Assembly: GCA_937875805.1 (NCBI GenBank)
Contig: CALFHG010000122.1
Location: forward strand, 1-21,334
DNA: 21,334 bases
Origin: an uncultured Nitrosopumilaceae archaeon
GTDB lineage: Archaea > Thermoproteota > Nitrososphaeria > Nitrososphaerales > Nitrosopumilaceae
Reading direction: 5' to 3'
Under the pieces are notes generated by a model. That model saw only the letters and a list, made by a program, of their open reading frames with translations. It was not told where the DNA came from and did not search any database. Each line of letters begins with the position of its first letter. The stretch's first letter is position 1. A program made the position numbers and the translations under genes. Below are positions 122 through 15,110 of the stretch, in pieces.

Positions 122-508
122 TTATTGTTGTTTTTGTGCTATTTTGATGGATTGATATGTCCATTCTCGGCCAGTTCTAGTTCTATTTACCCTACCTTTT
201 GTAGTAAATCGTGACAAGTATGTCGAAATAATACTAAGTTTTACAGGTTCATTATATTCATCCTCATATTTCTCAAGAATATTCGTTGAGGTAAATTTGC
301 CCATTGGGAAGAATTTATCAACAATATTCCAAATTTTAGAACCTGTCGAATCCATGTTTGTTGGTATTTGTTCTTCTTCAATATTCATCAAATCCATCAT
401 TTCAAATATTTTGAGAATTTTATCTTTAGTGACATTGCCTTCTAATTTGATGTCATATCGTGCACCATCAGAGTCTTCCATATCTATTCGAATACGTTTT
501 TTAGCCAT
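122..508 (-). CDS. conserved-type protein of unknown function next to the origin, possible winged-helix end
   Basis: This is a 128-residue protein with an ATG start and no signal peptide or membrane segment. I do not recognise a named family. The first ~35 residues (MAKKRIRIDMEDSDGARYD onward) look like a beta-rich segment followed by a helix. Residues ~60-122 look like a small helix-turn-helix or winged-helix domain: helix (SKIWNIVDKFFPMGKFTS), helix (TNILEKYEDEYNE), recognition-like helix (KLSIISTYLSRFTTKGRVNR) and a terminal strand (GREWTYQSIKIA). That matches the 'yLsRf..kG.v.R.r.gr.w.Y' shape seen in archaeal winged-helix proteins. It is transcribed away from the putative origin, so its promoter lies inside the origin region. 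A DNA-binding role is inference from fold and position only. Confidence 0.7.
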   Translation of the reverse strand: MAKKRIRIDMEDSDGARYDIKLEGNVTKDKILKIFEMMDLMNIEEEQIPTNMDSTGSKIWNIVDKFFPMGKFTSTNILEKYEDEYNEPVKLSIISTYLSRFTTKGRVNRTRTGREWTYQSIKIAQKQQ

Positions 509-667
509 CTTTGAGATCTAATTGATTGGATGTTAACAGTTGAAATGATCCCAGAATATTTGTTAACTAAGTGGTTTGTTAACATTGACTGCCTGAACCA
601 CGCCTAGGTTGTTTTTTGTTATTAACAACTAATCTATAATTATCTCTCCTTATTAGGATATTTTCGT

Positions 668-689
668 GCCTGGAGTGGAAATAAGAGGG
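668..689 (+). repeat. ORB-like repeat 1
   Basis: GCCTGGAGTGGAAATAAG followed by AGGG. The copy shares GAGTGGAAATA (673-683) with two others in this intergenic region and has the terminal G-run expected for contact by the Orc1/Cdc6 winged helix and AAA+ module. It lies in the same orientation as repeat 2, with the cores 61 bases apart, close to six helical turns. Confidence 0.7.
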
Positions 690-728
690 TAGATTTGAGA
701 TATTCACAGTGTTAACATCCACCTTAAC

Positions 729-750
729 GCCTAGAGTGGAAATAAAGGGG
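729..750 (+). repeat. ORB-like repeat 2
   Basis: GCCTAGAGTGGAAATAAA followed by GGGG. This is the closest of the three copies to the archaeal ORB pattern (TGGAAA core plus G4). It is a direct repeat of copy 1: 18 of 22 positions agree by eye, including the leading GCCT and the GAGTGGAAATA core at 734-744. Confidence 0.7.
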
Positions 751-829
751 TTAAAATGGGTTTTTTCAAACATTTCTTAACACCAAATTAACAATTTTGT
801 TAACTCATATCTAATTTAGGATTAAACCC

Positions 830-854
830 ACACACCAATATTTCCACTCTATCT
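830..854 (-). repeat. ORB-like repeat 3, inverted
   Basis: Read on the minus strand it contains TAGAGTGGAAATATTGG and continues into a GTGTGTGG run, so it keeps the 11-base core (plus-strand 839-849) and a G-rich end, though less regular than copies 1 and 2. It is inverted relative to them and sits at the edge of the AT-rich tract. Inverted outer ORBs flanking an unwinding element are common in archaeal origins. Confidence 0.6.
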
Positions 855-955
855 TTTTCTTTATTTTTTTTTAATAGAAAATCTAAATCTAACTAAAAAT
901 AATTCATTACAAACTAAACTACAACTACTATTCTATACTATACTCTCTTAATTCA
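851..955. other. AT-rich, strand-asymmetric tract, probable duplex-unwinding element
   Basis: The tract is about 80% A/T and begins with a pyrimidine run (851-872, including T9 at 864-872). Its plus strand has a single G (877), and CTA occurs at 883, 889, 893, 914, 919, 925, 928, 933 and 938. It lies between the inverted ORB-like repeat and the cdc6 start, the expected place for an unwinding element. CTATACTATAC (933-943) could also act as the TATA element of cdc6. Assignment as an unwinding element is by analogy. Confidence 0.5.
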
Positions 956-985
956 GATGTAGTTGTGTTAATGTTGAGAAGAAAT

Positions 986-992
986 GAAGGTG
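986..992 (+). promoter_or_regulatory. ribosome binding site deciding the cdc6 start
   Basis: GAAGGTG lies 7 bases before ATG at 1000 and overlaps or abuts the alternative GTG at 994. Normal Shine-Dalgarno spacing therefore favours the ATG. Confidence 0.5.
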
Positions 993-999
993 TGTGAGT

Positions 1000-2202
1000 A
1001 TGTCTGATCCGATAGATGACTTACTTAATGCAGCTGAATCTGGAAAATCAATTATTAAAAATCGTGATATTCTTCATTTTACATACATCCCAGATATTAT
1101 CTTACATAGAAAATCTGAACAAGAACAAGTTACACAATCTCTATTACCAATTCTAAAACAATCAAGACCATCAAATCTTTTAGTATATGGAAAACCTGGA
1201 ACTGGTAAAACTTTGGTAGTAAAAAAAGTATTATCTAAAATTCAAGAAAGAGTTGAGAAATCAAAATTTCCAATTAAACTAGTATATTCTAATTCAAAAG
1301 AAGAGACAACATTATACGGATTATTAGTCAGTCTAGGCAGGCAATTGGACCTAAATGAGAAAGAATTACCCACAACTGGGCTTGCTATTAGTGAGGTATT
1401 CAAGAGACTTCTTGCTAAAATTGATGAGGGAAAACTTAACGCAATTTTTGTAATTGATGAAATTGATTATCTAGCCCAATTAGTAGCAAAAACAGGAAAG
1501 GACATTCTATACCAATTAACTAGGGCAAACGAGCGTCTTACTCAAGGCTCATTAACTCTGGTTGGAATTTCAAATGATCTAACATTCAAAGAAAAATTAG
1601 ATCCCAGAGTAATCAGTAGTCTGGGAGAAGAAGAAGTTGTCTTTACCAATTATGATGTTGAACAGATTAAAAAAATACTTGAAGAGAGAATTGTTGAATC
1701 ATTTATTGAAAATTCAGTGGAAGAACCAGCCCTAAATCTCATTGCTGCTCTTGCTGGAGGAGAACATGGAGATGCTCGACGAGCAATCGATTTACTTCGG
1801 GTAGCAGGAGAACTCGCTGAGCGACAACAATCAGACAAAGTTACGGCTGAACATGTTAGAGAAGCCACTCAAAAAATGGAAGAAAACAAAGAAGAAAAAT
1901 CTCTCAAATCATTCCCACTTCACGAAAAATTAGTCCTTATTTCAATAATGAAGGCAAATGGCTCTTCTACTGGTGAGATTTACTCTTCTTACAAAAATCT
2001 CTGTAAAACAATTGGGAAAGATGAACTTACTCAAAGAAGAATTACACAAATGCTTAGTGAAATCGAGTTATCTGGATTAATATCTGGAAGATTGATTCAT
2101 CAAGGAATTCATGGTAGGACAAAAAAATACAAACTTACAATATCATCTGAAATGATAAAAAAGACATTCAAAGATGATCTAAGTTTGCAAGACATTGTCT
2201 AA
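1000..2202 (+). CDS. cdc6: Orc1/Cdc6 replication initiator
   Basis: AAA+ initiator that binds origin recognition boxes and helps load MCM. About 400 residues is the usual archaeal length. Numbering from the ATG at 1000: Walker A GKPGTGKT at 64-71, Walker B IFVIDEID at ~149-156, a sensor-1 strand ending in GISND, and a sensor-2/lid region with the hallmark GGEHGDARRAIDLLRVAGE. The last ~90 residues (from ~LHEKLVLISIM) form the DNA-binding winged helix. A GTG at 994 would add two residues, but GAAGGTG (986-992) is better spaced for the ATG. The putative origin lies immediately upstream and the replicative polymerase small subunit gene converges on it with a 24-base overlap. Only one orc1/cdc6 gene is in view; whether it is the only one in the genome cannot be told. 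Confidence 0.96.
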   Translation: MSDPIDDLLNAAESGKSIIKNRDILHFTYIPDIILHRKSEQEQVTQSLLPILKQSRPSNLLVYGKPGTGKTLVVKKVLSKIQERVEKSKFPIKLVYSNSKEETTLYGLLVSLGRQLDLNEKELPTTGLAISEVFKRLLAKIDEGKLNAIFVIDEIDYLAQLVAKTGKDILYQLTRANERLTQGSLTLVGISNDLTFKEKLDPRVISSLGEEEVVFTNYDVEQIKKILEERIVESFIENSVEEPALNLIAALAGGEHGDARRAIDLLRVAGELAERQQSDKVTAEHVREATQKMEENKEEKSLKSFPLHEKLVLISIMKANGSSTGEIYSSYKNLCKTIGKDELTQRRITQMLSEIELSGLISGRLIHQGIHGRTKKYKLTISSEMIKKTFKDDLSLQDIV

Positions 2203-3624
2203 ATTAGAACTATAATTCTCATGGAAGACTTGGAAAGTTTTCAAATTAACAATTATAGCAATACCTGGATTTGGAGTCATTCCAACACTTGCCTGAAAAG
2301 GCGTCTGTTTTTGCCAAGAACCAGAATTTACCAACAAGATTCCTTTGTACATATCCAATTGGGCTCTGTGAACATGACCTACATGAAAGATATCTGGAAT
2401 GTCCTGAATTACCAAAAGATCCTCCATTTCAGGCGCAATTGGTGTTTGACTACCATAAATTGGACTAAGATGTCTTGCTTTGAGAAGATGTTTCATAACA
2501 TTAGTAGGCCTGTCATAACTAAGACCAGGTGTAGTCTTTACAATATCATCTATACTTTGTCCATGAAACATTGACACAATAACTCCATTTAATGAGACTA
2601 CGGCTGGATTGCCAACCATTATCACATTTTCCCTCTCCCATAATCCTGAATTATATTTTTTAGGAATTGCCGGTTGCGGTAATGCTCTTCTACCAGGATC
2701 ATGGTTTCCTGGCATTATGATGATTTTCACATTTTTAGGGATTTTGTCAATCAAATCCTCTGCTTTTTTTAATTGCTCTTGTATTGTCTGGCAAACTAAT
2801 TCTTTATTTTGATTTGGGTATATTCCAACACCATCTACTATATCTCCACCAATTAGGACAAATCGAATTTTTCTTGCAACTGGATCTGGACTAGATATCC
2901 ATGATACAAAATCTGAAAATTCTTCTTCCATAAAATATTTACTTCCAATATGCAAGTCAGATAGAAAGACTGCATATGCATCACTTTCTGACTTGTTTTT
3001 TGCTTGATCTGGAATATCTGGAAAAATTAAATCCTTGATGATATATCCTGAGTTTTTAGCAGAACCTACCCTTGCCATAACAAATTGATCCATTAATAGA
3101 GTTCCAGCAGTTTTTTGCAATTCCTCATCAAAAATAATACCTTCAAACGAGCCTGAAGGATCCTCAAGAACTATCTTTGTGATATTTCTCTCAGAATTTC
3201 TAATAGTGACCAGTCCACACACATACAAATCATCATCAATTTTTGCATTTTTTAGAGATGCTGCAGATTTTAGTAGTTTTGATTCTGGTCTATCTGAGAT
3301 GATTCGTTTAAGCTTGTTAAAACGACTAGAAAACATGGCATTGTACCCTTTGACCCCCTCTCCAGATGTAATCTTACTAGTTGGGTCTGATAATATTTTG
3401 ACTTCGCTTTGTAACGATAAATCTTCTTTAATTCCAAGATATGTTTCTAAATCATCTTGATTAATTTGAAATAATTTTTGTCTTGTCTTCTCCCTTACTA
3501 TTTCTTTGATGATTTTTTCTAATTTTTTAACATCTACATCTTCCAAGATTTTAAAAGCATCAGGATGTATCTGAAATCCCTTGTTTAATGCATAGTTTAA
3601 CGCAAAGGAGATTTCCTTTTTCAT
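2179..3624 (-). CDS. polB: DNA polymerase D (Pol II) small subunit DP1
   Basis: Small subunit of archaeal PolD, a replicative polymerase; this subunit carries the Mre11-like 3'-5' proofreading exonuclease. The calcineurin-like phosphoesterase motifs appear in order: DLHIG at ~223-227, GGDIVDG at ~259-265, PGNHDPGRR from ~305 (GNHD 306-309), an HGQS block and GHVHRA at ~416-421. All metal ligands expected for an active exonuclease seem present. The N-terminal ~70 residues are helical, followed by an OB-fold-like segment (~115-210). The start is ATG at 3624. Its 3' end overlaps cdc6 by 24 bases in convergent orientation. The large subunit DP2 is not in the window. The divergent spoIIM-like gene begins 55 bases away, so the two share a promoter region. 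Confidence 0.95.
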   Translation of the reverse strand: MKKEISFALNYALNKGFQIHPDAFKILEDVDVKKLEKIIKEIVREKTRQKLFQINQDDLETYLGIKEDLSLQSEVKILSDPTSKITSGEGVKGYNAMFSSRFNKLKRIISDRPESKLLKSAASLKNAKIDDDLYVCGLVTIRNSERNITKIVLEDPSGSFEGIIFDEELQKTAGTLLMDQFVMARVGSAKNSGYIIKDLIFPDIPDQAKNKSESDAYAVFLSDLHIGSKYFMEEEFSDFVSWISSPDPVARKIRFVLIGGDIVDGVGIYPNQNKELVCQTIQEQLKKAEDLIDKIPKNVKIIIMPGNHDPGRRALPQPAIPKKYNSGLWERENVIMVGNPAVVSLNGVIVSMFHGQSIDDIVKTTPGLSYDRPTNVMKHLLKARHLSPIYGSQTPIAPEMEDLLVIQDIPDIFHVGHVHRAQLDMYKGILLVNSGSWQKQTPFQASVGMTPNPGIAIIVNLKTFQVFHENYSSNLDNVLQT

Positions 3625-14611: not shown

Positions 14612-14778
14612 TACTGTTTACTGTTGGTGATTATTAAATAAAAACAATATGATTCAGGTAATTTTGTAATCAAAACCAAACTTTACAAACTAAAAATTCC
14701 TAGAATTTTCTCAAAATCTAATTCTTAATTGAGATATAACACACATTGTAATAAATGTTAAAAATGAAAATAATTTTT

Positions 14779-14797
14779 TTAGAAATTTATTTTCTAA
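14779..14797 (-). terminator. hairpin followed by a T-rich run, possible terminator
   Basis: TTAGAAA-TTTAT-TTTCTAA is a perfect 7-base inverted repeat around 5 bases that includes the stop codon of the 63-residue gene. Downstream on the minus strand follows a T-rich stretch (14759-14778). Archaeal termination relies mainly on the T-rich part; the hairpin is AT-only and weak. Confidence 0.3.
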
Positions 14798-14978
14798 TTG
14801 ATTCTAAAGAATGTCCACGATTGGTAATCATTTGAGTAACTGCTTCAACAGTATAATCAATTCCATGTTCTTCTTCAAAATGATTTCTTAGTTTTTCAAT
14901 TGTAGCTATGGATTTTGATTCATCAATAACATATTCACATTCAAAACCATAGTCATCACATCTCAACTTTAATGTCAT
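14787..14978 (-). CDS. DUF1059-like small metal-binding protein
   Basis: 63 residues. The pattern LRCDDYGFECEYVIDES with Cys 7 and Cys 14, followed by a helix with IEKLRNHFEEEHGIDY (His 33, His 39), is that of the DUF1059 'predicted small metal-binding protein' family: C.d.gf.C.fv......e.......H....H. The two Cys and two His could make a zinc-finger-like site. The function of the family is unknown. Transcribed alone, with a possible terminator just at its end. Confidence 0.75.
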   Translation of the reverse strand: MTLKLRCDDYGFECEYVIDESKSIATIEKLRNHFEEEHGIDYTVEAVTQMITNRGHSLESIRK

Positions 14979-15042
14979 TCAGTTTGGGAAAAATATTGAA
15001 CCTATAAAAACTGTGAATACATATTTCTTAATTAAATCAAAA

Positions 15043-15063
15043 TTAGGCACAAATTATGCCTAA
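15043..15063 (+). promoter_or_regulatory. inverted repeat upstream of crcB
   Basis: TTAGGCA-CAAATTA-TGCCTAA: perfect 7-base arms, 7-base spacer. It lies just before a TATA-like AAAATTATA (15063-15071), about 48 bases upstream of the crcB ATG. Position and symmetry suggest a regulator site. The TTAGG..CCTAA outer half-sites recall DtxR/MntR-type metal-regulator operators, but the spacing differs and this is only a resemblance. Confidence 0.4.
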
Positions 15064-15110
15064 AATTATACAAATAGCACTAATAATGTCAATTAGTTTC
15101 AAATGATTAG

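Follow-up and report, generated by a model that had tools for sequence, protein, structure and literature searches.

Locus organization and neighbouring genes

The DNA analysed here (the window; contig C122, 21,334 nucleotides) comes from an uncultured archaeal genome of 350 contigs and 1,320,120 bases that is 88.6% complete. By its sequence the host is a Nitrosopumilus-like archaeon; its closest relatives among public genomes are mostly labelled Nitrosopumilus, and ammonia oxidation by the host would be expected from these relatives. A gene for a winged-helix-like protein (P0002) and an orc1/cdc6 initiator gene diverge from the two sides of a gap (509–993), and orc1 is followed on the opposite strand by the gene for DP1 (Table 1). 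The initial annotation had placed the gap directly before orc1, which was confirmed. Its description as the only long gap holds in that 509–993 is the longest ORF-free gap noticed in the window; the ORF list shows another of similar length (14612–15110), but with an ORF inside. This ORF of 63 residues (14787–14978, minus strand) lay below the first ORF-list cut-off and fills the apparent gap. Searches of the window for tRNA genes and Rfam families gave no matches.

For comparison, 136 candidate relatives were reduced to 80 loci; the window was aligned with 79 of these (80 rows), L076, whose upstream sequence covers just 148 bp, being omitted. An outgroup of 23 genomes from other genera, families and orders was picked by hand. 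Translation of orc1 likely starts at ATG 1000 rather than at GTG 994; the ATG is present in 66 of 72 relatives (eight were left out), and CTG or GTA replaces the GTG in 14 of the 72. A single orc1/cdc6 match was found in the source genome at its 88.6% completeness. Many genomes in a survey of the class contain at least two Orc1-like matches, some of them in the same genus, and a paper on Nitrososphaera evergladensis contains a report of three Orc1 proteins in that organism. A second origin is possible in relatives, since several carry at least two Orc1-like matches. The orc1–DP1 neighbourhood is known from euryarchaea, as stated in passages of PMC2643942.

Table 1. Coordinates of genes and sequence elements around the orc1-proximal gap
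Feature	Position	Strand	Remarks
P0002, 128-residue winged-helix-like protein	122–508	-	Remote BlaI/CopY similarity; candidate array reader
Box 1, TGTTAACA	531–538	.	23–30 nt upstream of the 122–508 gene start; GTTAAC in 71/80 rows
Box 2, TGTTAAC	561–567	.	79/80 rows
Box 3, TGTTAACA	577–584	.	66/80 rows
Conserved block with GCCTG and GCCTAGG	587–608	.	Mean column identity 0.858; GCCT common to left end of ORB1/2
Half-site TTAACA	622–627	.	
ORB1, GCCTGGAGTGGAAATAAGAGGGT	668–690	+	671–690 matches published common ORB at 16/20; mean column identity 0.938 (80 aligned rows)
Box 4, TGTTAACA, between ORB1 and ORB2	710–717	.	65/80 rows
ORB2, GCCTAGAGTGGAAATAAAGGGGT	729–751	+	732–751 matches published common ORB at 18/20
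Two half-sites TTAACA	777–782, 788–793	.	
Box 5, TGTTAAC, between ORB2 and ORB3	798–804	.	53/80 rows
ORB3, inverted, AGATAGAGTGGAAATATTGGTGT	832–854	-	Matches published common ORB at 15/20
AT-rich, G-poor tract, between ORB3 and ORB4	857–970	.	79.8% AT; 6 G of 114
Lone half-site	966–971		At edge of 857–970 tract
ORB4, degenerate, inverted mate of ORB3	971–993	+	974–993 matches published common ORB at 15/20
orc1/cdc6 initiator gene	1000–2202	+	TIGR02928, 361.6 bits (cut-off 181.3); Cdc6_C match
DP1, small subunit of DNA polymerase D, gene following orc1	2179–3624	-	NF003118, 538.7 bits (cut-off 445)

ORB boxes, AT-rich tract and strand composition

An oriC1-type origin is expected to have an adjoining orc1/cdc6 gene, several ORBs with a TGGAAA-type core and a G-string, an AT-rich region bracketed by inverted ORBs and a reversal of strand composition. 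The adjoining gene is present, as are several ORBs of this type. The three exact copies of GAGTGGAAATA on which the initial annotation was built (673–683 and 734–744, plus strand; 839–849, minus strand) were found again, and no other exact match exists in either the window or the 1,320,120 genome bases; the reversed control pattern occurs once in the same bases. Only exact copies are informative, because with two mismatches allowed the window contains ten sites against 9.7 expected. Flanks included, the direct copies form a 23-nucleotide repeat, 87% identical and 61 bases from start to start. Both have the adjacent G-run noted earlier (GAGGGT and AAGGGGT), and the inverted copy carries GGTGTGTGGG. 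The common archaeal ORB given in passages on Ori-Finder 2, TCCA[CG]T[TG]GAAA[TC][GA]AAGGGGT (PMC4164010), was used for the comparisons in Table 1; the standard CTCCAGTGGAAATAAAGGGGT form of the ORB is present in some more distant relatives. The 61-base spacing had been read as placing both direct copies on about the same helix face, and no more than an approximation is warranted, as it equals 5.8 turns at 10.5 bp and varies in the alignment (62 in 46 rows, 61 in 32). The helix-phase argument was dropped, since the spacings of the GTTAAC boxes (30, 16, 133 and 88) and of the ORBs (61–62) have no common phase.

Two direct ORBs and one inverted ORB are conserved in 76 of the 80 rows (exceptions L046, L052, L074 and L082) when scored with a position weight matrix trained on ORB1–3 of the same rows, in agreement with the expectation that the cores be kept in close relatives. 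Mean column identity is 0.92–0.95 for ORB1–3, 0.84 for ORB4 (976–993) and 0.94–1.00 for the five GTTAAC boxes, compared with 0.47–0.76 for three linkers. More distantly, a direct pair of TGGAAA-type cores 60–64 bp apart was found at 12 of the 23 outgroup loci, down to ∼43% Orc1 identity; of the 11 loci where it is absent, three had less than 320 bp of upstream sequence. The GCCT elements of the conserved block at 587–608 are possibly half-ORBs.

The degenerate ORB4, an element additional to the initial annotation, was left out of the training of the matrix. ORB1–3 are the top matrix sites in the window and in the complete chromosome of a relative (G001), a result that is circular by construction, while the rank of ORB4, fourth of 42,624 window sites, is not circular. 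Its score of 7.0 bits is 26 below that of ORB3 and 13 above that of the next window site, and a score of at least 6.98 is reached in 0.05% of ∼2,000 random 120-bp pieces of G001. The position ranks fourth within its own region in 69 of the 80 rows and scores above 3 bits in 61, and its counterpart in G001 ranks sixth of 3,345,278 sites, with two sites elsewhere scoring higher. ORB3 and ORB4 lie within a 24-nucleotide inverted repeat that is 75% complementary, and ORB4 ends 6 nucleotides before the likely orc1 start. An AT-rich region is thus bracketed by inverted ORBs, one of them degenerate, with an AT content that is high and not extreme: 1.3% of 114-bp stretches in the window are equally or more AT-rich. 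This tract, also conserved in relatives (mean column identity 0.904 for 884–946 in the 80 rows), is a candidate unwinding element and probably overlaps the orc1 promoter.

Strand composition was analysed in two relatives, the source genome with its 350 contigs being too fragmented. G001 (OX638319.1, 1.67 Mb, labelled as a chromosome) has its ORBs at 498 kb; G002 (CATOSM010000001.1, a 1.86 Mb contig) has them at 1331 kb and was sampled in 51 blocks of 20 kb, denser near the ORBs. The raw cumulative GC skew of G001 is so flat that its minimum (597 kb, at a distance of 99 kb from the ORBs) could not locate an origin; skew was therefore computed at third codon positions with correction for gene strand, using a simple ORF caller and a 20-kb grid (10 kb for G001). 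The best breakpoint in G002 lies at 1340 kb for GC skew (GC3) and at 1320–1360 kb for AT skew (AT3). In G001 AT3 breaks best at 510–550/1280 kb, and GC3 disagrees, with breaks at 980–1230 and 1620–1660 kb. The skew check proposed in the initial annotation thus came out in favour of the locus with both measures in G002 and near the locus with AT3 in G001, and against it with GC3 and the raw GC minimum in G001. Because breakpoints alone cannot tell an origin from a terminus, the assignment was decided by the ORBs and orc1. The third-codon AT skew of G001 also flips sharply at ∼250 and ∼1600 kb, so that the orientation of ∼320 kb looks opposite to that of its replichore, and the size of the skew in this genome tends to rise with distance from the origin.

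Could the gap instead be a long divergent regulatory region from which Orc1 regulates its own gene, with the origin elsewhere? An Orc1 paralogue of one archaeon is described in the abstract of PMC9738581 as a regulator and not an initiator, and the GC3 breaks of G001 would fit such an arrangement; against it speak the AT-rich tract between inverted ORBs and the skew breakpoints, which fall at the locus for both measures in G002 and close to it for AT3 in G001, and we regard it as very improbable. The match to the published ORB, its uniqueness in the genome, the conservation, the skew breakpoints, the single orc1, the DP1 neighbour and ORB4 all support the initial assignment of the gap as a replication origin, which on its sequence features we consider highly likely.

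The TGTTAA array and the neighbouring protein P0002

The gap contains a second array, of TGTTAA/TTAACA half-sites, with 12 present against 1.0 expected; this array and the neighbouring winged-helix gene likewise go beyond the initial annotation. GTTAAC occurs 132 times in the genome, five times in the gap and nowhere else in the window. The five GTTAAC within 500 bp at the ORB locus of G001 are the densest cluster of that chromosome, which has at most two elsewhere, and TGTTAA/TTAACA reach 12 per 500 bp there against at most five elsewhere. Among the 80 Nitrosopumilus-like rows, the half-site at 777 reads TTAACA in 52 and TTCACA in 19, and the two forms would therefore seem interchangeable.

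The 31 tested regions preceding orc1 come from the window, from 18 outgroup loci and from 12 loci outside the class, the last including short coding flanks. The five remaining outgroup loci were left out (L258, L260, L263, L270 and L271; P0002 not facing orc1, more than 1.2 kb away, or little sequence); L256 and L264 are plain orc1-upstream stretches without an adjoining P0002, and L254 and L262 were joined across contig ends. Expected counts were taken from dinucleotide shuffles, and the regions share ancestry, so that the sums are not independent. For the eight Nitrosopumilaceae, 11 other class and 12 outside-class regions, respectively, observed and expected counts of TGTTAA are 75/5.9, 86/11.1 and 31/15.1 (161 against 17.0 over the 19 class regions) and those of TGTGAA are 8/3.7, 14/4.7 and 56/7.1. 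The corresponding control values are 3/5.9, 4/10.8 and 26/15.0 for TGTAAA (raised outside the class), 4/3.4, 6/4.7 and 5/6.7 for TGTCAA, and 7/5.1, 8/7.7 and 9/19.1 for TCTTAA. TGTTAA is enriched in 16 of the 19 class regions (p ≤ 0.01), the other three (L261, L267 and L268) being enriched in TGTGAA instead (p ≤ 0.013); outside the class, TGTGAA/TTCACA is enriched in 11 of 12 regions (p < 0.02), with L284 as the exception (p = 0.087). We have high confidence from these sequence comparisons that the second array is real. A full-text search on whether GTTAAC is an origin element already named in archaea returned two papers, in one of which the letters are the ends of oligonucleotides. No description of the TGTTAA array, or of a gene for a winged-helix protein at the origins of Thaumarchaeota, was seen in listings and passages of the freely accessible literature.

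In a profile comparison, P0002 resembles the winged helices of PF03965 (BlaI/MecI/CopY), to which it is remotely similar over residues 60–120. It differs from this family in scoring below the Pfam gathering cut-off (20.2 against 22.6 bits), in having its own N-terminal region and in its linkage to orc1; 30 of 42 members of the P0002 family match PF03965 at E ≤ 0.01, the best at 1.1e-7. The operators of BlaI, MecI and CopY are palindromes with TACA/TGTA. P0002 faces orc1 in 78 of the 80 relatives, and at the remaining two loci a contig end intervenes. It was found in a single place in each of 24 class genomes (the source genome and the 23 picked). When places were compared by hand, with single contigs taken as circular, 17 of these had P0002 facing orc1 at up to 0.9 kb (two across contig ends) and three at 1.2–3.0 kb (one across contig ends); in three it has the same direction as orc1 within 0.3 kb (one across contig ends), and in one it is on another contig. 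Of 151 genomes sampled across the phylum, 97 gave one match each, and 72 of these share only the phylum. From these 72 we chose 28, and in 27 of them Orc1 was matched at E ≤ 1e-50. In 12 of the 27, P0002 faces the matched gene within 0.9 kb; in the other 15 it is not beside it (eight on the same contig at least 3.4 kb off, seven on another contig).

The putative recognition helix of P0002, assigned by homology rather than from a structure, comprises residues 91–101. Residue 101 is Phe or Tyr in all 14 of the TGTTAA-type class regions in which P0002 was seen (14 of 16), and Leu, Ile or Met in all ten TGTGAA-type regions in which it was seen (three class and seven outside). Two loci fit this pairing poorly: in G442/L291 both half-site types are enriched with Leu101, and L263 has three of each type near P0002, also with Leu101. 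The G447/L294 region is mildly mixed in half-site type. A first form of the idea, set before the outside rows were fetched, comprised Thr93, Thr/Ala/Asn at 99 and Leu101; in eight new outside-class rows Thr93 was seen in six, the residues at 99 in three and exactly Leu101 in six. These counts weakened the proposal that the half-site type also depends on residues 93 and 99. Two changes of the TGTTAA label suffice on a 24-row Orc1 tree (five rows of unknown type counted as not TGTTAA), and the support from residue 101 therefore amounts to about two events.

That the residue–array association rests on few events leaves room for a different array-binding protein, either of the nucleoid type or a divergent Orc1 paralogue, with P0002 an unrelated neighbour. 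We consider this unlikely: P0002 is found once per genome, is DNA-binding-like and faces the origin, and half-site type and residue 101 switch together. This alternative overlaps in part with a weightier one, to which we give a slightly less than even chance, that the ORBs are the origin and the TGTTAA array is nothing more than a P0002 operator, serving auto-regulation and perhaps control of orc1 with no part in initiation. With box 1 in the expected promoter, part of the array may simply be an operator; across the 31 regions, half-sites of either form cluster towards P0002, with 205 of 270 in the half nearer to it; and L260, where P0002 is turned round and has Leu101, carries four TGTGAA against one TGTTAA upstream of P0002. 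Boxes 4 and 5, however, are placed between ORBs at a distance of 200–300 bp from where P0002 starts and are kept in 65 and 53 of the 80 rows. Twelve half-sites would also be many for one small gene, and its linkage to the origin is long-lived.

Proposed organization of the origin and comparison with known systems

The two arrays, their conservation, the gene linkage and the skew reversals can be read directly from the sequences. It is very probable that 509–993 is a chromosomal replication origin of the oriC1 type and, jointly, that the second array is real. Orc1, encoded beside the gap, would bind the four ORBs, two of them a direct pair at 61 bp (ORB1–ORB2) and two, ORB3 and ORB4, inverted on either side of the AT-rich tract, at which MCM loading and DNA opening would take place; the course from Orc1 binding to MCM loading is well founded, with both steps predicted here. 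Orc1 on ORB4 may also repress its own gene, since ORB4 ends at the orc1 start. The half-sites, often fused as TGTTAACA, run from the P0002 promoter through the ORB1–ORB3 region. A P0002 dimer could bind this array, regulate its own gene and organize or gate the origin, much as nucleoid proteins organize other origins; that P0002 is both the reader of the array and an origin factor is a tentative proposal.

The chromosome origin of Nitrosopumilus maritimus was reportedly studied by Pelve et al. in 2013. N. maritimus has a single origin mapped by marker frequency, according to passages in PMC4010727, PMC5333045, PMC4588119 and PMC5797428, and in passages of the Nitrosocaldus genome paper the origin was placed by analogy with it. 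The N. maritimus origin is single, like the gap described here; ORB4, a TGTTAA array and a link to P0002 are not mentioned in the passages on it. Passages of PMC12141716 on Sulfolobus oriC1 (ORB2–DUE–ORB3, with the ucm motif and its protein UBP) describe a similar placement of inverted ORBs around an AT-rich region and a second, non-ORB motif with its own protein, which here is a candidate. In Sulfolobus a single short ucm lies within the DUE, halfway between the inverted ORBs, whereas the array lies mostly outside the candidate DUE, with its five palindromes at 531–804 and the tract at 857–970. UBP, in the same passages, binds DNA through β-hairpins and has more than 300 genomic sites, while the candidate here is winged-helix-like and encoded at the origin. 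Haloarcula hispanica oriC1 likewise has an AT-rich region between inverted ORBs with G-strings and an accessory repeat that enhances its function, but that repeat is G-rich and inside the ORB pair, as passages of PMC3936714 describe.

As an origin, the gap belongs to a known type. In Nitrososphaeria and related lineages outside the class, P0002 could be a second sequence-specific origin protein that has co-evolved with a TGTKAA array since before their split, a reading we hold with some reserve. Such a protein would, by analogy and just as provisionally, be a counterpart of UBP or of bacterial IHF/Fis encoded at its own origin. In passages of PMC12141716 its authors ask whether other lineages have analogues of accessory origin proteins. 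If the array and P0002 do work together, they would answer this 2025 question (PMC12141716) for archaea outside Sulfolobales and Desulfurococcales, in a host group central to nitrification.
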